NCBI GenBank assembly: GCA_021787845.1
Contig: JAJYLH010000013.1
Span: 1 to 32,594 of the forward strand
DNA from: Myxococcales bacterium
Lineage (GTDB): Bacteria > Myxococcota > Myxococcia > Myxococcales > JAJYLH01
Direction: 5' to 3'
DNA: 32,594 nucleotides
Below, piece by piece: positions 11,501 to 32,594 of this stretch. A model generated the notes under the pieces. That model searched no databases and was not told the DNA's origin. It saw nothing but the letters and a program-made list of their open reading frames with translations. A program made the position numbers and the translations under genes. Positions within the stretch are counted from its first letter, which is position 1. Every line of letters starts with the position of its first letter.

Positions 11501-13192
11501 ACCGCGAGCTGCGCGAACCGCTTCGTCGACGTGACCACCTCCGACTTCCCGGTCTCGGCGGGCGCCGGCCGGGACGCGGCCGTGGGCGACATCAACGGCG
11601 ATGGCAAGCTCGACATCATCATCGGGTTCAACGGACAGCGCAACAAGGTCTATGTGAACACCGGCGGCAAGTTCACCGACGTCACCCTGACGAACCTCCT
11701 GCCCAACGACGTCGACGCGACCTGGGCCACCTGGCTCGTCGATTACGACAACGACGGAGACCTGGACCTGATCACTCGGCGGTCGCCGACCACCGACGAC
11801 CCGCAGCCCATTCGCATCTACAACAACGACGGCACCGGGCACTTCTCGAACGACGTCGGCCAGTCCGCCTTGCCGCCGGTCATCGGCGAGGGAACCTTGG
11901 ACGATCTGGTCCTCGGCGACGTCAACCGCGACGGCTACCCGGACATGATCTGGATCCAGGAGAACCACCAGAACCGGATTCTCCTCAACGACACCAAGGG
12001 GCATTTCGTCCGTCAGACCATCACCGACCTGCCCGAGCAGAACGTCGCTCTCCAATCCGCGGTGGCGGTGGACGTCGACGGCGATGGCGACAAGGATCTC
12101 GTGACCTGCGGGACCGGTCCGATGCAGCCGCAGCTCTGGCTGAACGACGGCGCGGGCAACTTCGTCGACTACACGGCGCAACGGATGCCGCAGGTGAAGT
12201 TCAACTGTTACGACGTGGTGGCCGCGGACGTGAACGGTGACGGCGCGCCGGACCTCTTGTTCGCCGTCGCCACCGACCCGGGGAAGACCCCGAGCGGCGC
12301 CTCCGGCGCGAGCGTGTACTTGTTCATGAACGACGGGAACGGCACGTTCACCGACGCGACCTTCCCGCGGCTTCCGACCGACCCCACCAACCGTAACGTG
12401 CATCCTCACGTCATTGCGCCCATCGACTACGACGGGGACGGAGACTTGGACCTGTTGGTCGGTTTCGATGCTTGCGGCTCGTCCAACGGCCAGGTGCGCC
12501 TGTGGCAGAACATCGGGAAGAACACAGGCTATTTCACGGACGTGACGCCGACGGCGAACATCGGCGGGTTCCGCGGCGGAGCCTGCTGCCAGTGGTGGCA
12601 GTCGGACCCGATTTCGGACATCAAGGTCGGCGACTTGGACGGCGACGGGAAACCCGACTTTTTCGTGACTCGCCAGGATTCTTGCTGGGGCTACGATCCG
12701 ACCAACTTCACGCCGAACCAGATCTTCCTCAACAACGGCGACGGCAGCTTCAGCAACGTCACCAGCACCAAGTACGCTTATCCGACCTACGGAACCCACG
12801 CGGCGCTCGCGGACTTCGACGGCGACGGAACCCTCGACGTGTACGTGGTCAACGGTACCGACGACCGGCTCTACCTCAACTCGGGCGGCGCCCTGCTCTC
12901 CGACGTGACTCCGAAGAACCTGCCGCGCAGCGGGAACTCGGTGGGGGTCGTGGTCACCGACGTCGACGGCAACGGCGCGCCCGACCTGGTTCTCGCCAAG
13001 TCCGGCGGCAACCAGCCGCAGTTGCTGCTCAACATCGGCAACGGCGTGTTCTCGGACTACACCAGCACCAAGATGCCGTGGGAGAACGACCAGACCGACA
13101 ACATCGCCGCGGGCGACTTCAACGGAGATGGATTCGACGATCTGTTGATCCTCAACAGCGGGCAGAGCCGCATCTTCTTGCGACAGCCCTGA
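5528..13192 (+). CDS. Giant lipoprotein with 19 IPT/TIG repeats and FG-GAP/VCBS propeller repeats, 2554 aa
   Basis: GGAGG sits just before the ATG. The signal ends in LLVAC, so Cys19 is the lipidated residue. Residues of about 38-1727 form 19 consecutive TIG (Ig-like, plexin/transcription-factor type) domains of 80-100 residues. Each runs from P..GP..GG through TNPDGQ to GFTY-type ends. Residues 1740-2554 hold about 14 calcium-loop repeats of the FG-GAP/VCBS form (DFNGDGFPDVVIP, DINGDGKLDIIIG, DYDGDGDLDLLVG), expected to fold into beta-propellers. The protein is probably a long rod on the cell surface tipped by a calcium-dependent binding propeller, suited to adhesion or prey and matrix contact. 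No protease or transpeptidase motif is visible. It is monocistronic and convergent with the Ig-repeat lipoprotein gene. Confidence 0.93.
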   Translation: MRHHLTLAGSIALSLLVACSNQGTPTNTQNNTHAVPGPLIEEVQPPQGPAAGGSVILLRGERFAPGATVQFDKKASPEVVVADPGTLTAVTPAGKAGAVSVIVTNPDGQLTELADGFTYASATATSLTLTQAVPAQGPSTGGTLVELHGTGFASGALAFFGGRPASSVVVVSPTLLTCVIPAGLPGPVELAVTGPDGFSARLHNGFTYFDPSKATHPAPKLSAIAPVEGTVAGGDAASLTGSGFIPGMRAYLGGIPVGALDFGVNAATFTTPPGKPGNVDVAVTNPDGQGSILEAAFDYYAPTALLASISPTSGPVAGGTQVTVVGRNFTSDALLTLGGSAVTALTLVDPQTLSGTTPKGASYGYVDLQVVEPGGLIDTLHNAFYYTDADHPAPGSSTGPAPVSISRISPPTGPNTGGFTASLLGGGFQTGATVTFGSASASNVQVLGPTSIRVTVPPGTEGPATVTVTNPDHGTASLDGIFSYYDSTSQTPGPSLSGVLPAMGPTTGGTPVMLTGDGFADAAQVRFGTTASPKVQWISATELLATAPPATLPGAVPVIVSNPDGKSDSLLEGFSYYTKTDGETAPNVTSVTPQTGLVNEPAVVTVVGENFQEGAMVYAGIAPASSITVTSPTTLTATLPGQPAGKVDLTVVNPDGLFATLSQGFTYQAAPAPTVDSVSPSSGPAGATTQVTLSGQHFATGATVTAGTKPATGVEVTNATTITATLPAEPAGKVDLVVTNPDGQAGTLANGFEYVTPPPQISSIRPTTGPLAGGVTVLVLGQGFSPGATVSFGRIASPSVTFVAPTALKVLAPADVAETVDLTVTNPDGQAATLPQAFTYDPNWVALPTPSVTEVEPAHGPTTGGSAVLIKGGGFSDGMSVFFADQPATGVIEIDAATLYAVTPPNAAGPAHVTVIGQDGQTAVLAGAFTYTDPATLGPKPTLTGTSPTTGEQSAPVQVLLTGSGFASGAYVFFGGVLANNPLRLSDNIYQADALPHDPGAVDVAITNPDGQSAILKGGFTYVAAPTLASLTPSSGPTAGGTKILVTGTAFQSGAQVSIGGVAATQVNVRSPTLLDCFTPAGAAGAADVVVTNPDGQAFTLPQGFTFVPPPALSDKALLPASGPTTGGTIAMLSGQDFLAGMTATLGGKGATVQVLDPKTAVIEIPAASVGYADLTVTNPDGQTATASRAFQYKDPATLGAPPTVTQVTPGQGPVEGKTLLAVSGGGFEDGALVFFGMVPATQVLKVAPDTLTGMTPAGEPGKVQVAVTNPDGQTAVLADAFEYVADSQLSAPPTLSDLNPQQASVFGDTVIAVTGGNLTDGATFFFGGRPSASATVSGPGDASVTAPAAPAGPASVAVTNPDGQTALYKGTFTYIVPPPVPLSTSPSGGTTLGGTLLTLTGKNFQTGAVVQVGGGSCTGLTVVDSTQITCTTPPGADGPVAVEVTNPDGQKGTLGNGFTYVSPPVPSDVSPTSGPQAGGTALSITGTYFADGATVKIGANDCLNIHRVSAVLITCTTPAGSAGPAAIVVANPDGQEGTLAAGFTYLPPIPPPALTKVVPSSGSIRGGSGVTLIGNAFQVGATVKFGTIAASAVSVISGTSLTCITPAEDAGTVDVTVTNPDGQTASLPQAYTFKPDIALPPLAVTAITPNTGALVGGTALTITGNGFEAGLAVTVGANLCTSLSRLGPTALVCTTPPASSSGAVDVTVTDPDGQQVVVTKGFTYDQGGRFVVAGHNLMMEATGSKRAGVLLDVDRNNTMDFIEANWNGNNQAYLWEQINDGTGKFSLVPGNLPSEPANGRYPQMDSLYGGLRTGSVCTGSACEACAPGACTPQPLDLNQDGAPDFLYVTPWSVVVYLNDGAGKFTRSEYPICIDQWGNIRDSTSQGNAAVADFNGDGFPDVVIPRWGSAQNCWDSVTKTYSGGANEMLMLNDGKGGFISKPLAIPVVADNTTTVRAGDFDGDGDMDFITVNENNQQNRLYYNDSSVDCTPTASCANRFVDVTTSDFPVSAGAGRDAAVGDINGDGKLDIIIGFNGQRNKVYVNTGGKFTDVTLTNLLPNDVDATWATWLVDYDNDGDLDLITRRSPTTDDPQPIRIYNNDGTGHFSNDVGQSALPPVIGEGTLDDLVLGDVNRDGYPDMIWIQENHQNRILLNDTKGHFVRQTITDLPEQNVALQSAVAVDVDGDGDKDLVTCGTGPMQPQLWLNDGAGNFVDYTAQRMPQVKFNCYDVVAADVNGDGAPDLLFAVATDPGKTPSGASGASVYLFMNDGNGTFTDATFPRLPTDPTNRNVHPHVIAPIDYDGDGDLDLLVGFDACGSSNGQVRLWQNIGKNTGYFTDVTPTANIGGFRGGACCQWWQSDPISDIKVGDLDGDGKPDFFVTRQDSCWGYDPTNFTPNQIFLNNGDGSFSNVTSTKYAYPTYGTHAALADFDGDGTLDVYVVNGTDDRLYLNSGGALLSDVTPKNLPRSGNSVGVVVTDVDGNGAPDLVLAKSGGNQPQLLLNIGNGVFSDYTSTKMPWENDQTDNIAAGDFNGDGFDDLLILNSGQSRIFLRQP

Positions 13193-13336: not shown

Positions 13337-16300
13337 CTAATTCTGAACGGTCAGCATCGTCGTTCCCATCAGGCCTTCGTACTTGGCGATGATCTGGCAG
13401 GACCCAGGGCCAACGAGCCGGATCACACCGCGATGAGGCGGATCATTCGCGATGGGAGCAACGATCCCGCCGCAGACCCCCGGCACCGACCAGGAGGTCT
13501 GGTCGGTCACGTCGACCTGGCTGCCGTCCGAATAGACCGCAAGGGCGTGAAATCGCAGGGGCGTTGAAGACACGCTCTGCGTCGAATCCGCTGGTTCGAT
13601 GGCGACGCTCTTGGCCGCGTTGTCGGTTTCGGTGAACGAGACGCTCGCCCCGTCCACCACCGCGGCCTTGAAGACCTGATCGCCGGGCGCCGAGCCGAGG
13701 GTGGCGGTCGTCTGCGCGTACCCGTTCGCGTCGGTGTCCTCGGCACTGGGGCTGACGCTGCCGCCCGCGGCTGGCGCGAACTGGATGGGCGCGCCAACCA
13801 CGGGCGACCCGAAGGCGTCCAGCACCAGCACCTCCAGCGGGTCCGGCAGCGTCCCTCCGGGCTCCGCCTGAACGTCACCGGAAACGCTCTTCAGCAGCGC
13901 GACCGGTTGCCGGTTCGCCGTCTCTTCGAACTCGACGACCGCAGGCGCCGCTCCCGGCAGCGTCGCTGTGAAAATCTGCTGGCCGACCTCCGGCCCGAGC
14001 GTGACTGTCATCTGCGCCTGGCCGCCGGAAACGGGGCTGGTCGGCTGGCTCACCGAGCCTCCGCCGCTCACGACGCCCCAATAGACCACCGGTGTCGACA
14101 CGCCGCTCACCTGCGCCTGCACCACGAGCGGATCGGTCAACTCCGAGCCCGCAAGGCTGGTCTGGCCGGACCCATTGGATGCAGGTGCGAGCGCGATCGT
14201 CGCCGAGGCCTGCGGGGTCGTCCAGAGGTTCGGCAGCGTGATCGGTGAGCCGTCGAGCGGCGTCGGGCAGGAGGCGAAGCCACAGGACGAGGCGCTGAAC
14301 GATTGACTCGCCGCAGTCCCAGCCGTCATCGTCGCCTGCGCGAGCCCGGCCCCATCGGTCGTCACCGCAGTCGGCGCAATCGAGCCGCCACCGCTCACCG
14401 CCTCGAACTGCACCGGGACCTGACCGACCGGGTTCGAATACGCGTCGGTCACCCGCACCGTGAACGCGCCCCCGAACTTCTGACCGGCCGTCGTGAACTG
14501 GTTGTCCCCGCTGACCGGCTCTAGCGACCTCGGTGGCCCCGGCTCGGCCACGACCGCGAAGACGACCGGCGACCCGCGGAGCTTCGGCGAGTCGCAGAGC
14601 ACCCTGACGAGGCCAGCGGTCCGCGGCAGCATGAGCTCGACGGAAGCGGTCCCGTCCTCACCGGTGGTCGCCGGCGGCCGGCTCGCGAAGGAGCTCCCGT
14701 TCTGCGCCGTCCAGCTCAGCCCCGCGCCCATCGCCGGGAAGCCGTCCTCGTCCACCGCTTCGACCACCAGCGGCAAGCCGAGCGGCACCGCAACCGTCCC
14801 CTTCTGGCCGTCGCCGCTCTTGACCATCAGGCGCACGCCGCGCGTCACCCACACCTGGGTCGAGGCCGTGTTGCCGAAGGAATCGACGGCCTGCACGGTG
14901 TCGACGACGCCGCCCTTGGTCCCCCCGGCCTGGTAGATGCCGGTGGAGGAGTCGATGGCTCCGCCCGAAGCCGGCACGGGGAGCGACCAGATGAGCCCGT
15001 CGCCGCTGCCGCCCGTCGCCGTGAAAGCGATCGTTCCTCCGAGCGGCGTGCTCGGATTCTGCGGCACGATGGCGAGGCTCGGCGTGACGGTGACGGTCGC
15101 GCTCGCGGCGTTCCCGAACGAATCCACGACCTGGACCACGTCGGCGACGCCCCCCTGGTGCCCGGCCCGATAGGCGCCGGTGCTCGGGTCGATGCCCGCG
15201 CCCGACCCGTTCTTCGAAAGCGACCAGAGGTAGCCTTCACCGCTCCCGCCGGTCGCGACGAACCCGACCGATCCTCCCGGCGGCGTGGTCGGCGCAGCGG
15301 GCGCGATGCTCACGCCCGGGGTCACGGTCACCTCCGTCGTCGCGACGTTCCCCAGCGAGTCCTGGACCTGGACGACATCGGTCACGCCCCCCTGCGGCCC
15401 TGCCGCATAGGAGCCCGTCGCGGAGTCGATGGCACCGCCCGACGCGTTGGTCGCGAGACTCCATTGGAACCCCGAACCGCTCCCGCCCGCCGCCGAAAAC
15501 GTGAGCGCGCCCAGCGGCGGCGTCGACGGATTCGACGGTGCGACGCTGACGCCCGCCGACACCGTCACCCCCGTCGTGCCAGTGTTCCCGAGCGAGTCGA
15601 CCACCTGGACGGTATCGGTCACGCTCCCCGTCGGCCCTGCCGTATAGCTGCCGGTGGCCGCGTCGACGCTGCCCCCGGACCGGTCGGCGCTGAGCGACCA
15701 GGTGAAGCCGTCTTCGCTCCCGCCGGTCGCCGAGAACGAGACGGTGCCCCGCGGCGTCGTCGAGGGGTTGACGGGCGCCAGGGTGACGGAAGGGCCGACG
15801 TCCACCTTCGCGGTCGCGACGTTCCCGAGCGAGTCCAGCGCCTCCACGGTGTCGGTCACGTTCCCCGTTTCCCCGGCGGTGTAGCTCCCGGTGGCCGGGT
15901 CGATGGTGCCTCCGGAGTTTCCGCTCGCCAGCGACCAGGTGAGGCCGGCACCGCTCCCGCCCCTCGCCAGGAAGGAGACCGAACCGCGCGGGGGCGTGCT
16001 GGCGTGCGCCGGCGCAATCGTGAGCGGCGGCCCCACGGAGACGTCGGCCGTCGCCCCGTCGCCCACCGAGTCGACCACCTTCACCACGTCGACCACGTTA
16101 CCGGTGTCGCCGGCCTGATACGCTCCCGTCGTGCGATCGATGCTACCGCCCGAGCGGTTCGGCGCGAGCGACCAGGTCCAGCCGCTGGCGCTCCCTCCGG
16201 CAGCGGTGAAGGTGAGCGTCCCCCGCGGCGGCACGCTGGCGCTCGACGCCGCTAGGCAAATCGCGTTGCACACCGGGGTCGGGCTCGAGGCGGCGCAGGC

Positions 16301-16534
16301 GTAGACGCCCGCGCGATGGCACTCGCCGAGCGAAGCCGAGCAGGGCTTGTGAAACTGCGCGCTCCTCGTGCACGGCGTCGCGGCGAGGCAGGTTCCCCGG
16401 CGCCCCTCGTCGACGCCGCTGCAGTAGTACGCCGCCGGGCACTGCCGGTCGGTGTCGCAGGGGATTCCCGAAGGAATGTCCCAGGTGCAGGCCGCGACGA
16501 GCGCCAGCGCTCCCAAGAGAGCTCGCCTGGTCAC
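13337..16534 (-). CDS. Large Ig-repeat lipoprotein, 1065 aa
   Basis: The N-terminus MTRRALLGALALVAAC is a lipoprotein signal with Cys16. Residues 17-95 are Cys-rich (DTDRQCPAAYYC), like the EB-type modules in the 1074 gene. Residues of about 95-570 hold six homologous Ig-like repeats of about 79 residues, each with a TPPRG.., GGSG..WSL, GGTIDPATGSYTAG and DSLGN series. The rest carries Big_1 (intimin/invasin-like) domains, for example near VRVTDAYSNPVGQVPVQF, and a Big_2-like C-terminus. It is a stalk-type surface protein with no enzyme motif. Its ATG overlaps the stop of the PEGA gene as ATGA, so translation is probably coupled. Ligand unknown. Confidence 0.9.
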   Translation of the reverse strand: MTRRALLGALALVAACTWDIPSGIPCDTDRQCPAAYYCSGVDEGRRGTCLAATPCTRSAQFHKPCSASLGECHRAGVYACAASSPTPVCNAICLAASSASVPPRGTLTFTAAGGSASGWTWSLAPNRSGGSIDRTTGAYQAGDTGNVVDVVKVVDSVGDGATADVSVGPPLTIAPAHASTPPRGSVSFLARGGSGAGLTWSLASGNSGGTIDPATGSYTAGETGNVTDTVEALDSLGNVATAKVDVGPSVTLAPVNPSTTPRGTVSFSATGGSEDGFTWSLSADRSGGSVDAATGSYTAGPTGSVTDTVQVVDSLGNTGTTGVTVSAGVSVAPSNPSTPPLGALTFSAAGGSGSGFQWSLATNASGGAIDSATGSYAAGPQGGVTDVVQVQDSLGNVATTEVTVTPGVSIAPAAPTTPPGGSVGFVATGGSGEGYLWSLSKNGSGAGIDPSTGAYRAGHQGGVADVVQVVDSFGNAASATVTVTPSLAIVPQNPSTPLGGTIAFTATGGSGDGLIWSLPVPASGGAIDSSTGIYQAGGTKGGVVDTVQAVDSFGNTASTQVWVTRGVRLMVKSGDGQKGTVAVPLGLPLVVEAVDEDGFPAMGAGLSWTAQNGSSFASRPPATTGEDGTASVELMLPRTAGLVRVLCDSPKLRGSPVVFAVVAEPGPPRSLEPVSGDNQFTTAGQKFGGAFTVRVTDAYSNPVGQVPVQFEAVSGGGSIAPTAVTTDGAGLAQATMTAGTAASQSFSASSCGFASCPTPLDGSPITLPNLWTTPQASATIALAPASNGSGQTSLAGSELTDPLVVQAQVSGVSTPVVYWGVVSGGGSVSQPTSPVSGGQAQMTVTLGPEVGQQIFTATLPGAAPAVVEFEETANRQPVALLKSVSGDVQAEPGGTLPDPLEVLVLDAFGSPVVGAPIQFAPAAGGSVSPSAEDTDANGYAQTTATLGSAPGDQVFKAAVVDGASVSFTETDNAAKSVAIEPADSTQSVSSTPLRFHALAVYSDGSQVDVTDQTSWSVPGVCGGIVAPIANDPPHRGVIRLVGPGSCQIIAKYEGLMGTTMLTVQN

Positions 16535-17866: not shown

Positions 17867-18035
17867 GGAAGGCGCGGCTGGGCAGGCCGCCGGGGCCGGG
17901 TGCGCCTCGGCCGGTCGCACGACCTCGAGCGCGCGAGCGACGCTCGCGGCGCGAGACCTTTCCGGCGCGGCGCGGGCGGGCGCCTCGGCGGACGCGGGTC
18001 GCGGTCGTGCTATGAAATGCGGCCGAGGAAGGCGG

Positions 18036-19649
18036 ATGGCGGATCGGCGCGGCGACAAGACGAGGGTGGAGAGGGTGCTCGACGACCGGACGATTCTGGC
18101 GCCGCCCGAGCCGCCGCCGGACGCCTTGATCGACGGGAGCGGAAGCTCCGAGCGGCAGCGCCAGCTCACCCCGGAACCGCCGCCACCGAGGCCGAGCGGT
18201 CCCGTTCCCCCGCAGCCCGCGAGCCCGGCGCCGGACCCGTTCCTCGGCGCCACCCTGCTCGGGCAGTTCCAAATCCTGCGCCGCATCGGGAAGGGCGGCT
18301 TCGGAGCCGTCTACCTCGCCGACCAGATCGGGGTCGACCGCAAGGCGGTGGTGAAGGTGGTGAACCTCGCGCTCACCCAGAACCCCACCTTCTTGCTGCG
18401 GTTCCACCGCGAGGCGCGGGTCTTGGCGCTGCTCGACCACCATCACCTGTGCAAGCTGTACGCGTTCGGCGAGTACGAGGGGCAGCCGTTTCTCGCGATG
18501 GAATATGGCGGCGACCGCACGCTCGCCGAGGAGATTCGGCGGGCGGGGCGGCTCGACGAGAAGCGCGCGCTCTCCATCGCGGCGCAAATCTGCGACGCGC
18601 TGGCGGAAGCGCACCGGCAGGGCGTGGTTCACCGCGACCTGAAGCCGGCGAACGTCCTCCTGAGCGCGCGCGGCAGCGAGGACTGGGTGAAGGTGGTCGA
18701 CGTCGGCATCGCCAAGCTGATGGGCGGCGGCGAGGAGGTGCCGGACGCGGCGCTGACGGTCACCGGGACCATCGTCGGCACGCCGCAGTACTTCTCGCCG
18801 GAGCAGGCCCGGGGCGTCGCGGTCGACGGCCGCAGCGACCTCTATTCGCTCGGGGTGGTGCTCTTCGAGATGCTGACCGGGAAGCTGCCGATCAGCGCGG
18901 CGACGCCGATCGACTTCGTCCGGGCGCACAACGTCGAGCCACCGACCTCGCCGCGCCATCTCGGCGTCGAGGTGTCGCGGGTCACCGAGGCGATCCTGTT
19001 CAAGACGCTCGCCAAGGTGCCGGAGGCGCGGTTCCAGTCGGCGGCGGAGCTGGCCGAGGCCCTGCGCGCCGCGGCGGTGGGCAAGGCGACGCCGGGGCTC
19101 CTCCCGCCGAGCCCCAAGCGCACGGGTTTCGTCGCGGCGGCGGTGACGACGGCGGTGGTGGCGGCGCTCGGCGTGACGGCGGCGCTCATGCTATCCAGGA
19201 GAGGTGCCGTGGGGCCGGTCCCGCGTCCGGGTCCGGTGAAGGCGGCGGCGGTCCCGGTGGACGTGAAGGCTCCCGCTCGGCCCGCGACGGTGCCGGTGAT
19301 CGGGCGGCTGCTCTTCCGGGCACCGGGGACCACCGTCTTCGTCGACGCGCCCGGGGTCGACCCGAAAGCGGCGGACCCGGAAGTGGCGGTGAGCGCGACG
19401 GGCGAGCTCGTCCTGCGGGTTTCGGGCCGCGCCGTCGACGTCAGGTTCCACTGGCAGGGACGCGGTCTAGAGCTCGGTCTGCGCGCGACCGGCGGCGACA
19501 CGCTCGAGAAGGACGCTTCGCGTGGCACGGCGATTTCGTTCGCCGTCAGCGCGGCGCCGGCGATGTTCGAGCTCATCCCGGCGACCGGGGCGACGATTCC
19601 GCTCCTCTGCCGGTTCTCGGGCGCCGGAGCGGGAGTGCATTCGCCTTGA
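18036..19649 (+). CDS. Transmembrane Hanks-type Ser/Thr protein kinase with DVG in place of DFG, 537 aa
   Basis: The ATG at 18036 has AGGAAGG upstream and is preferred to the ATG at 18012, which has none. After a Pro-rich N-terminus, the kinase domain (about 72-345) shows the glycine loop GKGGFGAVY (85-93), Lys107 in AVVKVV, the HRDLKPAN loop with Asp201, and a GTPQYFSPEQ activation segment with Glu256. The Mg-binding motif is Asp222-Val-Gly rather than DFG. The essential Asp is kept, so activity is likely. A single membrane helix (364-386) is followed by a beta-rich extracytoplasmic domain of about 150 residues without PASTA repeats, presumably the sensor. It is divergent from the PEGA operon; GabD2 starts 85 nt downstream. 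Confidence 0.93.
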   Translation: MADRRGDKTRVERVLDDRTILAPPEPPPDALIDGSGSSERQRQLTPEPPPPRPSGPVPPQPASPAPDPFLGATLLGQFQILRRIGKGGFGAVYLADQIGVDRKAVVKVVNLALTQNPTFLLRFHREARVLALLDHHHLCKLYAFGEYEGQPFLAMEYGGDRTLAEEIRRAGRLDEKRALSIAAQICDALAEAHRQGVVHRDLKPANVLLSARGSEDWVKVVDVGIAKLMGGGEEVPDAALTVTGTIVGTPQYFSPEQARGVAVDGRSDLYSLGVVLFEMLTGKLPISAATPIDFVRAHNVEPPTSPRHLGVEVSRVTEAILFKTLAKVPEARFQSAAELAEALRAAAVGKATPGLLPPSPKRTGFVAAAVTTAVVAALGVTAALMLSRRGAVGPVPRPGPVKAAAVPVDVKAPARPATVPVIGRLLFRAPGTTVFVDAPGVDPKAADPEVAVSATGELVLRVSGRAVDVRFHWQGRGLELGLRATGGDTLEKDASRGTAISFAVSAAPAMFELIPATGATIPLLCRFSGAGAGVHSP

Positions 19650-19668
19650 CTCGAGGGCCAGGCCGCGC

Positions 19669-19698
19669 TTGACCTTTGGGCGGCAAGCGCACCAGCAT
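19669..19698 (+). promoter_or_regulatory. Candidate promoter (CGCTTGACC -35 type) for the aldehyde dehydrogenase
   Basis: GCGCTTGACC places TTGACC at 19669-19674. An 18-nt spacer leads to CAGCAT (19693-19698), with A2 and T6 conserved, 36 nt before the start codon. This suggests the dehydrogenase is transcribed independently of the kinase. Confidence 0.4.
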
Positions 19699-19734
19699 CG
19701 CGCCGGGTTCGGCTCCTCGCGGAAAGGGACATCG

Positions 19735-21348
19735 ATGACCACGGCTCCAGAAGCAGAGAATCCGAGAGCGGTCCCGGAGAAGGGCGGCCCTGCGCCTCGG
19801 CATGCGAACCAGGAAGTCTTCGACCGCTTGGCGGCGCGCATCTCGGTCCGCCCCGGAACGCGCCCGATGGCGGAGGTCGTCGCTCCGTTCACCGGCCGCC
19901 TCTTGCGGCAGGTGCCTCTGTGCACGCCGGACGACGTCGCTTTTGCCGTCCGCCGCGCCCGCGAGGCGCAGAAGGAATGGGCGGCCCGCAGCTTCTCCCA
20001 GCGGGCCAAGGTCTTCCTGCGCTACCACGACCTCGTGCTCGCCCGGCAGGAAGAGGGGCTCGACATCATCCAGCTCGAGAGCGGCAAGGCGAGAAACCAC
20101 GCTTTCGAGGAGATCGCCGACAACGCGATCATCGCCCGGCACTACGCCCGCCACGCGGAGGGATACCTGAAGCCCCGCCGCCGTAAGGGAGCGCTGCCGC
20201 TACTCACCGTCACCCGCGAGCTGCACCACCCGCTGGGCGTCGTCGGGATCGTCGCGCCGTGGAACTACCCGCTCTCGATGGCGGTCACCGACGCCGCGGC
20301 CGCCCTGATGGCCGGGAACGCGGTGGTGCTCAAACCCGACCTGCAGACCCCGTTCAGCGCGCTGTGGGGCCTTGCGCTCTTGGAGGAGGCGGGGCTTGCG
20401 CCGGGGCTGTTCCAGGTGGTGACGGGGCGCGGGCGGGAGCTCGGCGGGCCGCTCATCGAGGGCGCCGACTATGTCTGCTTCACCGGCAGCACGGCGACCG
20501 GGCGCACCATCGCGCGGCAGGCCGGAGAGAGGCTCATCGGTTGCTCGCTGGAGCTCGGCGGCAAGAACCCGATGCTCGTCTTCTCGGACGCCGACCTGGG
20601 GAAGGCGACGCACGGCGCGGTGCGCGGCTGTTTCGCGAACACCGGGCAGCTCTGCATCTCCATCGAGCGGCTGTACGTGCAGGCGAAGGTGTTCGACGAG
20701 TTCCTCGCCCGCTTCCAGAAGCTGACGGGAAAGCTCGAGCTCGGCGCCTCCTTCGACTACGCGCACGACATGGGCTCGATGTCGTCGAAGGACCAGCTCG
20801 ACAAGCTCGTCAAACACATCCAGGACGCGGTGGAAAAGGGCGCGACGGTGGTCGCGGGCGGGAAGGCGCGGCCGGACCTGGGGCCGTACTTCCACGAGCC
20901 GACCATCCTCACCGGCGTGACCGACCAGATGCTGGTGTCGCGCGAGGAGACGTTCGGCCCGCTGGTGTCGGTCTACCGCTTCGAGACGGAAGAAGAGGCG
21001 ATCCGCCTGGCGAACGCGACGCCGTACGGGCTCAACGCGAGCGTCTGGACGCGCGACGTCGGCCGCGGCGTCCGGGTGGCGAGCGCCATCGAGGCGGGCA
21101 CCGTCAACGTGAACGAGGCGTACGCGGCGACCTGGGCCTCGGTGGACGCGCCGATGGGCGGCTTCAAGGACTCGGGCATCGGGCGGCGTCATGGGGCGGC
21201 GGGCATCTTGAAGTACACGGCCGCGCAGACGGTGTCCGTGCAGCGGCTGATGCCGCTTTCGGCGCCTCCGGGAGTCGAAGAAGCGCGCTACAGCGCGCTG
21301 ATGACCCGGGCGCTCAAGATGCTTAGTCACATTCCCGGCGTGCGGTGA
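19735..21348 (+). CDS. gabD2: Succinate-semialdehyde dehydrogenase, GabD2-type aldehyde dehydrogenase
   Basis: A 537-residue NAD(P)-dependent aldehyde dehydrogenase that would oxidise succinic semialdehyde or a similar aldehyde to the acid in the cytoplasm. The catalytic Cys307 lies in NTGQLCISIERLYV and the general base Glu273 in ELGGKNPM. The nucleotide-binding APWNYPLS and FTGSTATGR segments are intact. The pattern ISIERLYV, MGSMSSKDQL, ARPDLGP and SGIGRRHG matches mycobacterial GabD2 more closely than E. coli GabD, so the symbol rests on that resemblance. GGAAAGGG stands 6 nt before the ATG. No gabT or other GABA-pathway gene is nearby, so the substrate is not certain. Confidence 0.9.
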   Translation: MTTAPEAENPRAVPEKGGPAPRHANQEVFDRLAARISVRPGTRPMAEVVAPFTGRLLRQVPLCTPDDVAFAVRRAREAQKEWAARSFSQRAKVFLRYHDLVLARQEEGLDIIQLESGKARNHAFEEIADNAIIARHYARHAEGYLKPRRRKGALPLLTVTRELHHPLGVVGIVAPWNYPLSMAVTDAAAALMAGNAVVLKPDLQTPFSALWGLALLEEAGLAPGLFQVVTGRGRELGGPLIEGADYVCFTGSTATGRTIARQAGERLIGCSLELGGKNPMLVFSDADLGKATHGAVRGCFANTGQLCISIERLYVQAKVFDEFLARFQKLTGKLELGASFDYAHDMGSMSSKDQLDKLVKHIQDAVEKGATVVAGGKARPDLGPYFHEPTILTGVTDQMLVSREETFGPLVSVYRFETEEEAIRLANATPYGLNASVWTRDVGRGVRVASAIEAGTVNVNEAYAATWASVDAPMGGFKDSGIGRRHGAAGILKYTAAQTVSVQRLMPLSAPPGVEEARYSALMTRALKMLSHIPGVR

Positions 21349-25961: not shown

Positions 25962-26888
25962 ATGGGTCGAGCCCTCGAGGTGCGCAAGGCCGCGGCCGTC
26001 GATCGGCTGCGCTTCGTGCTGCTCGGACTGGTCGTGGCGGGCCTGGGCTGCGGTCCGAAGGCGACGCCGCCGGGGCCCAAGACGTATCGAGACTCGCTCT
26101 CGGTCTGCTGGCACGACCTCTCGTGCAAGCGCGCGTTCCTCATCAGCCATCAGGGCGACTGGAACACCCAGCCGGTCCTCCCCTTCGACTCGATGGCCGC
26201 GTTCCAGCGCGCCTACGCCAACGGCGCCGACGGCATCAAGGCGGACTTCCGGGTGACCAGGGACGGCGTGCCGGTCGTCGCGCACTCGAGCCCCATCGAG
26301 CCCTGGGAATCGACCGACTGCTTTGGCGACAAGATCGAAGACATGACCGCGGCCCAGGTGACCGCCTGCCACCTCATGGGTTCCGCCACCGAGACCTTCC
26401 AGAAGGTCGGCGACGTCCTCGACTGGGCCCGCGGCAAGCTGACGGTGATGCTCACGGTCAAAGACCAGAACTACGCCACGGCGATTGCCACCATCCTCGC
26501 CCACCAGGCCCAGGACTTCGCCTTCATCGAGGTCAGGCTGGGGGATCTCCAGTCCATCGCCGAGAAGGCGCCCAACCACGATCAGGTCTGGTTCAACGCC
26601 GAATTGCACGACGAATCGGAGGTCTCGGCACTGCTCGAGCTCCACGACCGGCGGGTGATGATGGTCGAGCTCGACAACTACGATTCGAGCACCGTCACCC
26701 AAACGATCGACAGCGAGGTTCATCCAGCGGGCCTGCGCGCCTTCGTGATGGGCAACGGCCAGACCTCTGAAACGCAGCAGGAGGCGCTCTTCGACCTCGG
26801 GTTCGACGTCGTGATGACCTACGACCTCCCGAACGGCGTCCTGGCGCGCAAGAAGGTCAACCAGGCCCGAGGCATCACCCCGCCCTGA
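25962..26888 (+). CDS. GDPD-like lipoprotein with altered active site, 308 aa
   Basis: The ATG directly follows the stop codon of the previous gene, so translation is probably coupled; there is no separate ribosome-binding site. A hydrophobic stretch ending GLVVAGLGC suggests a lipoprotein, though the lipobox is imperfect. The rest fits the glycerophosphodiester phosphodiesterase TIM barrel: LISHQGDW (His63), GADGIKADFRVTRDGVPVVAHS, and a late DLGFDVVMTYDLP strand. Compared with the family signature HR...ExD...H, it keeps His63, Asp95 and His108. HR is HQ (Gln64) and the metal-binding Glu of ExD is Lys93. The Glu of PENT is also missing (PFDS). It may be inactive, or hydrolyse an unusual phosphodiester. 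It is the last gene of the three-gene operon. Confidence 0.82.
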   Translation: MGRALEVRKAAAVDRLRFVLLGLVVAGLGCGPKATPPGPKTYRDSLSVCWHDLSCKRAFLISHQGDWNTQPVLPFDSMAAFQRAYANGADGIKADFRVTRDGVPVVAHSSPIEPWESTDCFGDKIEDMTAAQVTACHLMGSATETFQKVGDVLDWARGKLTVMLTVKDQNYATAIATILAHQAQDFAFIEVRLGDLQSIAEKAPNHDQVWFNAELHDESEVSALLELHDRRVMMVELDNYDSSTVTQTIDSEVHPAGLRAFVMGNGQTSETQQEALFDLGFDVVMTYDLPNGVLARKKVNQARGITPP

Positions 26889-27113: not shown

Positions 27114-27254
27114 TCCGCCAACCGCAGGCCAGCGGGCACCCGCGTCGGCCACATGGTCGCTCGACCCCGGCGCGAATCCTGCCGCGGGGCCCCGGGCTCT
27201 CACTGGTCGCGCGGACAGTGGGGACCCGGTCCGCGCGGGAAAAGAAGGTGTGCC

Positions 27255-28166
27255 ATGCCGTCCCTCGCCACCGCCGAACCCGAGTTCGAGTGGGGCCGCG
27301 CGGCCGAGCTGCTCGCCGGGCTCGTTCCGGTGCCCGCGCTCGTGCTCGACGCGTTCTTCGTCGTCCGCATGGCCAACCAGGCGATGGAAGATCTCGCCGG
27401 CTGGCCGCCGCAACGGGTCATCGGCCGGTCGTTCGCGGAGATCTTCTGCCTGCCCGAGGAGGGCCGCGCCAGCGGTCACTGCTTCCACGCCGCGCTCGAC
27501 GGGCACCTGCGCTCCTGCCGCACGACCGTGATTCGCCCGGACGGACGGCAGATTCAGCTCGACTGGCAGCTCGCTCGCACGGGTGCCGACCGCCAGGCCG
27601 CCGTCGCCACCGCGCGGCTCGCCGCTGGCGCGCCCGCCCGCCGGCCGCCGCTGATGACCGGCGAGGAACGGCTGGAAATCCGCACCGACGAGGGCCACTT
27701 CGGTGAAATCGTCACCGTCTGGAGCGGGCTGCGCGTCTCGCCGGGCGACATCTGTCATCGCGCCATCGCCGGGCTGCCGGAGCCGTGCCCGAACTGCCCG
27801 GCGCTCCACCTCTTCGACCCCGCGCCCCGAACGACCGTCGTGTCGCCACCCGGGCTCCAGGGCGACCGGCTGCGGATGGTCACCGCCCAGCCGACCGGCC
27901 ACGAGACCGCGGAGATCTGCGCCCGCGAGCTGGACCTGTCGGTCCGGGAGAGCCTGGCCCACGCCCGGCTCGCGTCGCTCGGACGCCGCGGGCGCCTCTC
28001 GACCCGCGAACAACAGGTCCTCGCCCACCTCGCCACCGGCGAAACGCCCGAGGACATCGCGAGCGCGCTGCACATCACCCGGCGGACGGTCAAGTTCCAT
28101 CAGGCGAACGTCCTCGCCAAGGTCGGCGCCAAGTCCCGGCTCGACCTGATGCGCCTATTGGTGTGA
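27255..28166 (+). CDS. PAS-domain LuxR-family transcription regulator with cysteine motifs, 303 aa
   Basis: AGAAGG precedes the ATG at 27255, which is preferred to the ATG at 27153. A PAS domain begins near residue 15 (LVPVPALVLDAFFVVRMANQ). Residues 64-182 contain two cysteine groups: Cys65/Cys76/Cys88 and Cys167/Cys178/Cys181 (CHRAIAGLPEPCPNCP). The second matches the C...PCpnCP motif seen next to PAS domains in sensor kinases. Residues 248-303 are a GerE/LuxR helix-turn-helix (LSTREQQVLAHLATGETPE, HITRRTVKFHQANVLAKVGA). There is no receiver domain, so sensing is probably direct, perhaps of redox state or a bound metal. Its targets are unknown; it is transcribed alone or as the start of a short unit. 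Confidence 0.88.
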   Translation: MPSLATAEPEFEWGRAAELLAGLVPVPALVLDAFFVVRMANQAMEDLAGWPPQRVIGRSFAEIFCLPEEGRASGHCFHAALDGHLRSCRTTVIRPDGRQIQLDWQLARTGADRQAAVATARLAAGAPARRPPLMTGEERLEIRTDEGHFGEIVTVWSGLRVSPGDICHRAIAGLPEPCPNCPALHLFDPAPRTTVVSPPGLQGDRLRMVTAQPTGHETAEICARELDLSVRESLAHARLASLGRRGRLSTREQQVLAHLATGETPEDIASALHITRRTVKFHQANVLAKVGAKSRLDLMRLLV

Positions 28167-28349: not shown

Positions 28350-29132
28350 ATGGTCGCGAATCGCAGCACGAACGATCCCTCTCGTTTCCCGACCGACGCC
28401 GACTTGCGCGGCTACGACCGGGCGCAGTCGTTCGCCAAGATGGCGGCATCGAAAATCGCGGCGCGCGTCGAAATCGGCATGTCCGAACGCGAGGCGACGG
28501 AGGTGGCTCGGCACGTGTTCGAGGAGCTGGGCGTTCGCCATCACTGGCACATGCCGGTCATCGGCGCGGGGCCCGGAAGCACCAAGTTCACGAGCGCCGG
28601 ACGGCTGGTCCGGAGCATGGTCGGTGCGAAGAGGAGAAGAGTGAGCGGCGGCGACCTGCTGTTTCTCGACATCGCCCCGTTCTTCGAGGGATATCCGTCC
28701 GACTTCACGCTGACCCACCTGTACGGCGAGAACGACGAGCTCCAGCGCCTCATCGACTGCGCTCTGAGCCTGACCCGGCGCATCTCCACCCATTTGCGCG
28801 AGGACATGCAGGCGGGCGCGACCTGGGCGTGGATCAAGTCTGAGGTCGAGCAGTGTCCTTACGAGTGGATGCCGTTCCCCATTGCGCCGGTGGCCCACCG
28901 GTTTGCCAAGACACCGGACCGCTGGCCGAAGTTCAGGGAGATCGGCACCGTCCACCTGTTCACGATGCGGTCGCCGATTCTCTTGCCCACCGCGAAGACC
29001 ACCATGCGCGGGCTGTGGGTGGTCGAACCGCTCCTCGTCGACCGCCGGCTGGATCGCGCCGCCAAGACCGAGGAGGTCGTCTTCGTCACCGGGTCCGAGA
29101 CGTTCATTTTCGGTGAAGCGCCTTTCAGTTGA
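28350..29132 (+). CDS. M24-family metallopeptidase-like protein, 260 aa
   Basis: The product has the pita-bread fold signature of methionine aminopeptidase and prolidase relatives. Candidate metal ligands are Asp107 (LLFLDIAP) and Asp118 (GYPSDFTLTH), 11 residues apart as in MetAP, then His183 (APVAHRF), Glu226 (WVVEPLL) and Glu241 or Glu242 (TEEVVFVTG). The DIAPFFEGYPSDFTLTHLYG block is the clearest match. With 260 residues and no extra N-terminal domain it is MetAP-sized, but the pattern is closer to Xaa-Pro peptidase-like proteins, so the substrate is uncertain. It has no signal peptide and is probably cytoplasmic. AAGGGA precedes the ATG. It stands alone between the regulator and the dockerin-like gene. 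Confidence 0.82.
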   Translation: MVANRSTNDPSRFPTDADLRGYDRAQSFAKMAASKIAARVEIGMSEREATEVARHVFEELGVRHHWHMPVIGAGPGSTKFTSAGRLVRSMVGAKRRRVSGGDLLFLDIAPFFEGYPSDFTLTHLYGENDELQRLIDCALSLTRRISTHLREDMQAGATWAWIKSEVEQCPYEWMPFPIAPVAHRFAKTPDRWPKFREIGTVHLFTMRSPILLPTAKTTMRGLWVVEPLLVDRRLDRAAKTEEVVFVTGSETFIFGEAPFS

Positions 29133-29346: not shown

Positions 29347-32300
29347 ATGTCGACTGCCGCGGGTTCAGCGTGGCCCGAGAAGCGCTACTCCTCGCGCCGT
29401 CCTGGCCGATCCGCCTCCTTTCCTGCCGGGCGATTCGCGCTCGTCGCGGCGGCCTGCGCGAGCGTTCTCGCTCTGCCGTCGCGCTGTCGTGCCCTGACCG
29501 CGGACGAGTGCGCCGACATCGCTCCCGCGGGGTCGCCGGATGGGAAGGTCGACAGTGCCGACGTCGACCTCGCGCTGCGCGTGGCCGCCGGTGACGCGAC
29601 GCTCGACGCTTCGGCCATCGAGCGCGGCGACGTGGCCCCGGTGACGCCGCTTTCGCCGGCGACCGACCATCCCCAGCTCGTGCGCCCGAACCCGAACCCG
29701 GTGGGCCCGCTGGACATCGGCGACGTGGTGGTCATCGCCCGGCGCGCGGCGGGTCTCATCGCCTTCGGCGAGGTGAACCAGGCGCCGACCATCCGAGTCT
29801 CCGGCGACGGCGACATCGTCAGCGTTCCGACCTTCCCGGTCAGCGGGACCATCAGCGACGACACCCCGGTCGCGACCGCCAACGTCGTCATCACGGTCGG
29901 CGGCGCCGCGGCTGGAACCGCGACCATCACGACCAGCTCTCCCACGGCGCTGACAGGCACGTTCTCGCTCCCGGTGACGCTGGCCGACGGCGGCAACAGC
30001 ATCGTGGCGACGCCGTACGACAGCGACGGCAAGGCGGGCGCCCCGGTGACGATCACGGTGACGCTCGACCAGACGCCGCCCGAGCTGACCATCGACGCGC
30101 CGCCGGACGGCACCGTCACGAACCAGGGCTCCGTGCAGCTCTCCGGCACCGCTTCCGATGCCAGCGGGGTCACGGTCACCGTCGACGGCCTACCGGCGGT
30201 GCTCCTGCCGCCGAACCTCTGGGGCGCGACCGTCGACCTGCCCCAGGAGGGGCCGAACACCTTCACGGTGACCGCGAAGGACGGCGCGACGCCGCCGAAC
30301 GTGACGACGCTGACGCGGGTGATCATCCACGACACCACGCCGCCGGAGATCACCATCGACCCGCTGCCGCCGGCGACCAACGTCCACACCTTCGCGATGA
30401 CTGGAACGGTCTCGGATCGATGGGGCATCGCGTCGGTCGCCGTGGGCGACCAGGTCGCGACCATCGACTGGGACAGCTCGACGGCGAGCGGCACCTGGAC
30501 GGCGCTGGTGCCGGTGGTCAGCGGCGACAACACGTACACCGCCGTCGCGACCGACAACGGCGGCAATCAAACGAGCGCGGGGCCGGTCTCGACGACGGGC
30601 GACTTCGTGCCGCCGACGGTGACGCTCCTCTCATCCGCCTTTGTCAACAAGACGCCGACCGATTTGAAGCTCGGGTTTTCCGAGCCGGTCTACGTCGATC
30701 AGATCGGCTCGCAGACGTTCTCGCCGGCCACGTTCGTCGACAGCGGGGGCTTGACCCTGTCGGTGCCGCTGCAGGTGGGCGCGAACGAGCTGACCGTGCG
30801 CGTGCGCGATGTCGCGGGCAACCTGACGAACACCGAGGTAACGGTCACGCTCGACGAGACGCCGCCGCAGGTGACCATCACCCGTGTCTCGAACGCCGCG
30901 TTCGAGTTCCAGCCGCCCGGCGGGCTCGACGGCGTCATCACCAATGCCCCGTCGCTGGTGGTCGAGGGCACCGTATCGGACAACACCGGCGTCCAGAGCG
31001 TGACGGTCAACGGCTTCACCGCGACCGTCGATGGAAGCGGAATCTTCAGCGTCTCGGGCGTGCCGCTGATTCCCCGCCGGAACACCATCACCGCGACCGC
31101 GACCGACCTGGCGGGCAACACCGCGACCGATTCCGTGAACGTCTTGCGCGACGCGGAAGGTCCGGTGGTCACGCTGGACTTCAATCGCGCCGCGTACGTC
31201 AGCGACATCGACCCGGCGCCCGCGCCCTTCAACGTCCCGCCGCTGCCGTCGCGCTACTACACGAGCCCGGGGGACATCGTGGTCCATGGCACCGCGAGCG
31301 ATCCGTACTACACGAACGTGGCGAGCCTCGCGGTCACCCTGGACGGCAACCCGCTCTCGGTCACCGCCGATGCCACGAACTCGACCTTCTCGTTCAGCCT
31401 CCCGGTCTCGGTGCTGCACACCGCGGGACTGCACCTGATTCAAGTGACATCGACCGACTCCTTAGGGAACCAGACGGTCAACGTCCAATCGTTCCTGGCC
31501 GGGCAATGGGTCGTGCCGAACGGGACCATCGCCAACGCCATCGGCGCCGCCGCGGGACCGGGCGCGCTGACCGCCATCAGCTCGCTCTTGTCGACCGAGG
31601 TCAACGCGATGGTGGCGAACGGGATGCCGTTGGACCAGTCGACCTCGGTCAACGTGGGCGTCGGCACGGTCACGGTGACCATCAAGGGCCTCGGCTTCTG
31701 CGAACCCCCGGGCGACCCCACGAACACGCCTTACAACTGCACGGCCAACGCGACGGCCACGCTGGCGCTCAAGTCCGACGGCCACATCGGCATCGCCATC
31801 CACATCCCGGTGCTCTACGTCGGCGTCCACACGGGTGCCAGCGGGGTCGTGGGCCTCTTCTGCGGCTCTTCGCACGACGGGTACGTCACCGCGTCCCCCG
31901 CGGACGTCACTCTGGAAGCCGACTTCACGAACGTCGCCCCCGACAACGTGGCGCTCCAAGCGGTGCCGGGGACCATCAGCGTTTCCATCAACAACCTCAA
32001 CGTCCACACGAACAACAGTTGCGTCGACACCCTGGCTTCCTGGTTCAGCGGCACGGTCACGAGCATGTTGGAGTCCCAGTTCGCGAACGAAATTCCGGTC
32101 TTGCTCAACTCGGTCAACGCCTACCTCGCGCAGCCGCAGCTCACCGACGATCAGACCGGTCGCGCGGTGTGGATCGCCCGGGCCTCGAACGACGCGAGCT
32201 CGATGCACTTCTGGCTCGACGCGCACGGCAATCCCTGTCCGACCGCGCAGTCGAAGACGGACATCAAGGACGCGAACGGCAACTATCTCCCCTGCCCTGC

Positions 32301-32594
32301 CGATTCGCCGCGGCTCGCCCCAGGAAGTTACGCGGGCACGCCGGACACCAGCGCCTCGATGCTACCGAACTTGAACCTCGTCGCGCCCGACGGCACCGGC
32401 GTCAGCGCCCAGGCCGCACCGAGCGACAACTTCGTGAACTACATGGTCCACGAGCAATGGGCGATGGGCCGGTTCGACATGACGGTCGATCAATCGACCC
32501 TCGGCGCCCACAGTAGCCTCTCGCTGGACACCAACTCGCTCAGCCTCTTCCTGCCGGACCTCGCCCGCAGCGACGTGGTCCAGAAGGTGCCGCT
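29347..32594 (+). CDS. Large exported protein with dockerin-like, Ig-like and TULIP-like domains (3' end beyond window)
   Basis: GGAGGAGG stands 6 nt before the ATG. The frame is open without a stop to the window end (1082 residues seen). A signal peptide (RFALVAAACASVLALP) is followed by two dockerin-like calcium motifs: SPDGKVDSADVDLALRVAAG (about 62-82) and GPLDIGDVVVIARRAAG (about 120-136). Residues 143-695 form six Ig-like repeats of about 85-115 residues, most starting with TPPE or a similar turn (DQTPPELTID, ETPPQVTI) and ending in GNT/GNQT strands. Residues from about 700 mix beta strands (VGVGTVTVTIKGLGF) with an amphipathic helix (ASWFSGTVTSMLESQFANEI), resembling TULIP/BPI-type lipid-binding folds; this is an inference. 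It is probably a surface or secreted protein, perhaps binding lipid or matrix. The C-terminus is not visible. Confidence 0.9.
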   Translation, partial: MSTAAGSAWPEKRYSSRRPGRSASFPAGRFALVAAACASVLALPSRCRALTADECADIAPAGSPDGKVDSADVDLALRVAAGDATLDASAIERGDVAPVTPLSPATDHPQLVRPNPNPVGPLDIGDVVVIARRAAGLIAFGEVNQAPTIRVSGDGDIVSVPTFPVSGTISDDTPVATANVVITVGGAAAGTATITTSSPTALTGTFSLPVTLADGGNSIVATPYDSDGKAGAPVTITVTLDQTPPELTIDAPPDGTVTNQGSVQLSGTASDASGVTVTVDGLPAVLLPPNLWGATVDLPQEGPNTFTVTAKDGATPPNVTTLTRVIIHDTTPPEITIDPLPPATNVHTFAMTGTVSDRWGIASVAVGDQVATIDWDSSTASGTWTALVPVVSGDNTYTAVATDNGGNQTSAGPVSTTGDFVPPTVTLLSSAFVNKTPTDLKLGFSEPVYVDQIGSQTFSPATFVDSGGLTLSVPLQVGANELTVRVRDVAGNLTNTEVTVTLDETPPQVTITRVSNAAFEFQPPGGLDGVITNAPSLVVEGTVSDNTGVQSVTVNGFTATVDGSGIFSVSGVPLIPRRNTITATATDLAGNTATDSVNVLRDAEGPVVTLDFNRAAYVSDIDPAPAPFNVPPLPSRYYTSPGDIVVHGTASDPYYTNVASLAVTLDGNPLSVTADATNSTFSFSLPVSVLHTAGLHLIQVTSTDSLGNQTVNVQSFLAGQWVVPNGTIANAIGAAAGPGALTAISSLLSTEVNAMVANGMPLDQSTSVNVGVGTVTVTIKGLGFCEPPGDPTNTPYNCTANATATLALKSDGHIGIAIHIPVLYVGVHTGASGVVGLFCGSSHDGYVTASPADVTLEADFTNVAPDNVALQAVPGTISVSINNLNVHTNNSCVDTLASWFSGTVTSMLESQFANEIPVLLNSVNAYLAQPQLTDDQTGRAVWIARASNDASSMHFWLDAHGNPCPTAQSKTDIKDANGNYLPCPADSPRLAPGSYAGTPDTSASMLPNLNLVAPDGTGVSAQAAPSDNFVNYMVHEQWAMGRFDMTVDQSTLGAHSSLSLDTNSLSLFLPDLARSDVVQKVP

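Follow-up and report, generated by a model that had tools for sequence, protein, structure and literature searches.

The human proteins BPI, LBP and CETP (PF01273/PF02886) consist of two TULIP barrels joined end to end, and TULIP domains are described as lipid-binding in the accessible text of two reports (PMC5507252; PMC6791001). Bacterial proteins with the fold are known as well, namely P47 and OrfX2, and also DUF4403, a pseudodimeric BPI-like protein treated as a full-length BPI homologue in the accessible part of PMC6791001 (Levine 2019), a text in which 'myxo' does not occur. Described separately is the MYXO-CTERM tag, composed of a cysteine motif, a hydrophobic helix and an arginine cluster; in the published model, as given in the accessible text of PMC11980579, the cysteine is lipidated and a myxosortase cuts beside it. 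The same text reports one protein, MXAN_5598 of Myxococcus xanthus, in which an internal MYXO-CTERM is followed by a second set of domains, and suggests a fusion of two genes. Here we analyse a stretch of 32,594 nucleotides from a Myxococcales bacterium (assembly GCA_021787845.1, contig JAJYLH010000013.1; "the window" denotes this whole stretch), at the end of which a gene begins whose product combines immunoglobulin (Ig)-like units, a BPI-like region, a MYXO-CTERM-like tag and a second, exported-looking part in one frame. By sequence comparison and structure prediction, the protein is a divergent, Ig-bearing relative of BPI-fold surface proteins that form a widespread family in Myxococcota. 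We lean slightly towards the view that the gene product is a precursor from which two surface proteins arise, a BPI-type one (residues 1 to ~1376) and a large Ig protein.

The reading frame and its domain order

The window comprises bases 1-32594 of contig C63 (97,004 bases), with equal contig and window coordinates, in an assembly of 6.24 Mb (153 contigs, 98% complete). The open reading frame (ORF) starting at ATG 29347 (+), whose protein we call the query, is still open at the window edge at 32594, where 1082 amino acids (aa) are visible. An earlier note, made from the window, had described an exported Ig protein gene at 29347-32594. The ORF is real and carries both an N-terminal hydrophobic segment and Ig-like repeats, but it does not end there: on the contig it continues in frame to a stop at 38487 (29347-38487, +; 3046 aa), so that the retrieved gene includes the tag and the second part, which lie beyond the window edge. 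Its features are as follows.

29347..32594, + strand: visible part of the ORF (1082 of 3046 codons); the contig ORF ends at 38487
29347..29502, + strand: N-terminal signal peptide region, residues 1-52, with a hydrophobic core at ~29-45 (from hydropathy; cleavage site not tool-predicted)
29503..29766, + strand: two degenerate dockerin-repeat-like motifs (from a motif search; unrecognised by Pfam)
29779..31494, + strand: about six Ig-like units, residues ~145-716 (Pfam Glucodextran_B and Big_13; units counted by eye)
31528..32594, + strand: start of the BPI-like double-barrel region, which spans residues 728-1236 (the remainder extends to contig base 33054)
33382-33474, + strand, past the window edge: MYXO-CTERM-like tag, residues 1346-1376 (profile match)
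33550-33696, + strand, past the window edge: second signal-peptide-like segment (from hydropathy)
33727-34482 and 37699-38484, + strand, past the window edge: two copies of a domain that we call domain X (sequence comparison)

Hydropathy in a 15-residue window exceeds 1.9 at exactly three places in the 3046 residues, namely ~29 (the first peak, residues 29-45), ~1354 and ~1423.

A Myxococcota family with the BPI fold

A profile search of the phylum, started from an alignment of the query region (residues 728-1236) and three relatives, gave matches in 74 of 194 genomes, and a family ORF was present at all 90 loci examined (90/90). After removal of cores shorter than 350 aa or at least 80% alike, 77 remained, of which 73 were aligned (three further fragments and one row with a stop were omitted). 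By loose patterns, 66 of the 90 family ORFs carry an N-terminal lipobox and 65 a Cys-helix-Arg tail. Pfam matches among the 73 cores were most often to PF02886 (10/73, best E 4.3e-5), and NCBIfam gave four single-member matches of no evident relation; none of the Pfam or NCBIfam families examined names this family with an over-threshold match. DUF4403, likewise bacterial and BPI-like (PMC6791001, accessible part), is not among the families matched by the 73 cores at E<=1. Judged by titles and abstract openings, the papers listed in literature searches include no account of a BPI-like family in Myxococcota, and the family is apparently undescribed.

The fold was modelled on the member L021 with the 73-row alignment, which gave a mean predicted local distance difference test score (pLDDT) of 93.9 and a predicted template modelling score (pTM) of 0.88. 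Foldseek of this model against the PDB returned BPI (1.5e-19), LBP (8.3e-18), CETP (7.3e-16) and, far more weakly, P47 (1.3e-7). Structural alignment with VIA-align gave BPI at Z 19.5 (433 residues, root-mean-square deviation 5.0), CETP at Z 17.4 (419, 3.9) and LBP at Z 16.5 (408, 9.1), the next row having 10.4, and the model aligned to all three over both barrels. The family profile, compared with 177,635 PDB sequences, hit human BPI in two entries (E 0.0009) and nothing else up to E 10; these matches are collinear over parts of both barrels, with a weak piece in the first. On the strength of this model, the family has the full BPI fold with two TULIP barrels end to end, as in BPI, LBP and CETP. 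It differs from the human proteins in being bacterial, in its surface-anchor signals and in a sequence identity of 12-15% in the structural alignments; the query further differs in the Ig units placed in front, and its lipid ligand is a prediction. The TULIP fold is also shared with P47 and OrfX2, from which the family is set apart by a much weaker Foldseek score (E 1e-7, compared with 1e-19 for BPI) and by another architecture.

The link between query and family came from profiles. Single-sequence searches of the genome's contigs found no relatives, either for the entire visible protein or for the barrel region; the same kind of search in related genomes and in the order returned the query alone (1/60 and 1/145), and in the phylum it matched in 3 of 194 other genomes, the hits being to three proteins from a different class (E 1.1e-6, 2.0e-6 and 2.0e-5; a second match in one of these genomes, L013, E 0.00225, was dropped since it has no readable family frame). 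Two family profiles built without the query scored 33.3 and 30.2 bits on residues 700-1240, compared with 3.0 and 2.0 bits for the best of 100 shuffles, at most 2.3 for the reversed sequence and at most 0.8 for other parts of the ORF (-1.0 or less with the profile that gave 33.3 bits). The profile matches fall into three pieces, collinear on the query; with the full-length profile the tag follows as a fourth, and the score including it is 39.7 bits. By hhalign, the second barrel of the query matched with a probability of 94.3 (E 1e-7, 186 columns). In phmmer searches the query matched 4 of the 90 family loci (best E 1.4e-8), its nearest relatives being in the other class. Two canonical members occur in the source genome itself, on contigs C92 and C121 (E 4.6e-163 and 3.5e-159; 46% identical to each other); neither was matched by phmmer with the query (0/2). 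A canonical lipobox cysteine was not seen by eye in the N-terminus of the query. From these comparisons we take the query to be a divergent relative of the family and not a canonical member. The TULIP-like region that the earlier note had placed after residue 700 is supported through homology, and can be sharpened to a BPI-type double barrel, the family model matching BPI over its full length.

An internal MYXO-CTERM tag followed by a second signal-peptide-like segment

At residues 1346-1376 of the query, a cysteine motif, a hydrophobic helix (hydropathy peak 2.61) and an arginine cluster stand in the order of the MYXO-CTERM proteins (PMC11980579, accessible text). Unlike the tag usual in those proteins, that of the query is internal: it is followed by 1670 residues without a stop. 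A loop with a net charge of +9 leads from it to the third hydropathy peak, after which come CSSCGG and two domain X copies that enclose some ten Ig-like units (counted by eye).

Internal tags were counted in this genome and in relatives. MYXO-CTERM matches numbered 25 at E<=1 in the source genome (12 over the cut-off), and tags were present in all 24 genomes searched for them; their presence points to Myxococcota as the phylum of the source genome. In the source genome, the ORF ends at most 14 residues past the match in 20 cases and after 49 in one; three of the 25 run on in frame to a signal-peptide-like segment (the query, C8/L126 and C140/L137), and one match, L143, has no cysteine motif. 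Among 105 sites in relatives (25 loci plus 80 rows, taken roughly from the best score downward with skips and not at random), the frame ends within 13 residues in 99, after 24 in one and after 62 in one, and 4 stay open for a further 200 to 500 or more residues, with a hydrophobic segment beginning 1 to 20 residues after the arginines. All seven internal tags with the cysteine motif (3 + 4) are followed by a signal-peptide-like segment, and so is an eighth case, L024/L147 (G152:C351), in which a canonical BPI-like protein is fused in frame to a metallo-beta-lactamase-like protein (our reading, from the motif HWHGDH, which within the DNA examined occurs only here and not beside the relatives of L024). 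Across the eight cases, hydropathy past the tag peaks at 1.66-2.31. Background windows taken from the query ORF (110 in number) have a median of 1.25, with 1.79 as the 95th percentile and 1.87 as the highest value, so that three of the eight peaks do not exceed the background 95th percentile. A value of 1.92 is also reached by L224, whose tail has 62 residues.

The C8 case (L144) has an OmpA domain at its end (E 7.1e-23), the C140 case (L145) a barrel-like domain (8.3e-6, just under the cut-off). MXAN_5598 shares with the query the internal tag and the second domain set; it is composed of an adhesin, an outer-membrane barrel and OmpA (PMC11980579, accessible text), in which the C8 case resembles it and the query does not. 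Since that protein is published, the arrangement is already known in one form; beyond that source, titles and abstract openings gave no general account of internal MYXO-CTERM junctions. What is new is that such an in-frame passage from a sorting tag into a further signal-peptide-like segment recurs.

One precursor or two genes

If the gene encodes a precursor, the first protein would be exported through Sec by its signal peptide, as in the published pathway; the tag cysteine would be lipidated, myxosortase would cleave, and type II secretion would bring the product to the surface. There it would be lipid-anchored, with the barrels near the anchor and the Ig units, probably serving as a stalk, pointing outward. 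Going by the fold modelled for the family, the barrels probably accommodate the acyl chains of lipids, either phospholipid or lipid A, taken from the membrane of the cell itself or of one in contact with it. The arginine cluster and the following +9 loop would remain cytoplasmic, while the second hydrophobic segment would act as an internal signal peptide and export the protein composed of domain X, Ig units and domain X, which would then be separated from the first. All this supposes that the missing stop would be missing in the living organism too.

Several results weigh against this reading. The query's own structure model, from a 4-row alignment, had a pLDDT of 30 and is uninformative, so that its BPI-type fold is assigned by homology only; structure prediction of residues 700 onward thus failed for the query and gave a double barrel for the relative L021. 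In Pfam the query matches PF02886 (LBP_BPI_CETP_C) below threshold (E 0.033, 14.1 bits against a cut-off of 23), the single profile pieces score 7-16 bits each, and identity to the family is ~20%. The query retains 24 of 66 well-conserved family positions; most conserved cysteine columns differ, and the family cysteines, including those of a cysteine-rich stretch between the barrels, are mostly absent. At the junction, the tag scores 12.3, 16.4 (tag alone) or 17.5 bits (genome search), depending on the stretch used, against the TIGR03901 cut-off of 20; the lipobox of the second segment is not canonical (by eye), and this segment starts 47 residues past the arginines, the farthest of the eight cases. 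Finally, linker codons 1377-1401 have guanine-cytosine (GC) fractions of 0.84/0.68/0.80 at the three codon positions, a contrast so low that just 1.4% of the ORF's 25-codon windows share it. The linker resembles former intergenic sequence, and the stop may therefore have been lost recently or by an assembly base error.

The last point leads to a serious alternative, which we hold to be quite possible if somewhat short of even chances: two ordinary neighbouring genes whose separating stop disappeared either very recently or through a base error of the draft assembly. If so, the BPI-like reading would be kept and the polyprotein would fall, leaving a BPI-like protein with its MYXO-CTERM and, encoded apart, an exported Ig protein. 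Besides the intergenic look of the linker, the assembly in 153 contigs fits this alternative, as do the failure of sequence searches to find a relative with the same protein pair and the finding that 2 of 192 other genomes (G160, G162) encode domain X in stand-alone proteins whose N-termini are signal-peptide-like. The internal in-frame tags (3/25 here and 4/105 in the sampled relatives), all with a signal-peptide-like segment, speak against it, because their recurrence is above what we would expect from random base errors, and MXAN_5598 is a published case (PMC11980579, accessible text). A frameshift is not favoured as the cause of the missing stop, because the next stops in the other frames, ~150-190 bases past the arginines (by eye), are too far away for a usual tag tail.

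A further alternative, which we consider unlikely, concerns the barrels alone: they might be a dead scaffold, that is, a BPI-like structural or adhesive module without a lipid pocket. The divergence of the query and its lack of most conserved cysteines would suit such a module, and surface Ig proteins are often adhesins. Against it stand the retention of both barrels in a family present in 74 of 194 genomes and the description of TULIP domains as lipid binders (PMC5507252; PMC6791001, accessible text).

The N-terminal motifs, Ig-like units and domain X

The earlier note had seen two dockerin-type motifs at the N-terminus and deduced a cohesin partner. The motif pair is present, beginning at query residues 66 and 120 and 54 residues apart, and in shuffles of residues 49-145 two motifs occurred in 0/2000 and one in 2/2000 (the pattern was written after the sequence had been seen). 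The dockerin itself was not recognised: within residues 48-143 Pfam found nothing even at E<=10, and a PF00404 profile search of the genome gave nothing at the query locus at E<=1, with five weak matches elsewhere, all below the cut-off (best 17.6 bits, in a 60-aa frame). In what we take to be the calcium-ligand register of dockerins, loop positions 1, 3 and 5 are, by eye, A,S,D and N,N,V, and thus degenerate. A search for cohesin (PF00963) found none in the source genome (0/1, 98% complete). The likeness to a type I dockerin lies in the two repeats in similar register, and a true dockerin docking the query protein to a cohesin scaffold is rejected as very improbable, given the lack of a Pfam or PF00404 match and of a genome cohesin, the degenerate ligands and the 54-residue repeat spacing. 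The motif pair itself is unlikely by chance.

The six Ig repeats of the earlier note were borne out. Pfam finds Glucodextran_B (E 1.3e-33, 5 stretches) and Big_13 (4 stretches) in the visible part, and six units were counted by eye between residues ~145 and ~716. An additional unit, Ig-like by eye only, lies between barrels and tag (~1238-1335). Over the whole ORF there are 13 Glucodextran_B stretches, 7 of them in the second half. The two domain X copies are 46% identical to each other and have no Pfam or PDB sequence match; by sequence they have no known fold, which does not exclude one. The stand-alone domain X proteins (L113, L114, L116, L117 and L118) are ~400-470 aa long, with several per genome in G162.

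Neighbouring genes

Upstream of the studied gene lie an M24 metallopeptidase at 28350-29129 (+) and a LuxR/PAS regulator at 27153-28163 (+). The window further contains a protein kinase at 18012-19646 (+), an aldehyde dehydrogenase at 19522-21345 (+) and a glycerophosphodiester phosphodiesterase at 25962-26885 (+). A 2554-aa protein at 5528-13189 (+) has 19 TIG stretches and FG-GAP repeats; an equally long frame on the opposite strand has no Pfam match at E<=1e-4. Large Ig-type proteins are found in the window at 13340-16534 (-; Big_1, MG4) and, shortly beyond the 3' end of the studied gene and in reverse orientation to it, at L001:9606-13016 (-; Big_1, MG4, TIG).

Implications

In Myxococcota, the MYXO-CTERM tag, the arginine loop and the internal signal peptide might form a general hairpin by which one chain yields two surface proteins, split after export, the pair being here a BPI-like and a large Ig protein; we put this forward tentatively, as a view with a good deal less than even probability. 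If true, pairing a BPI-like lipid-handling protein with an Ig protein would provide equal amounts of two parts of one surface machine, and the recurring tag/signal-peptide junction makes the question of one precursor and two surface proteins directly testable. The BPI-like family, if rightly read, would be a bacterial counterpart of an animal lipopolysaccharide (LPS)-binding immune protein on predatory or social bacteria. Present in 74 of 194 genomes, it offers concrete candidates for extracellular lipid or LPS handling by such bacteria, and lipid handling outside the cell bears on outer-membrane exchange and predation.

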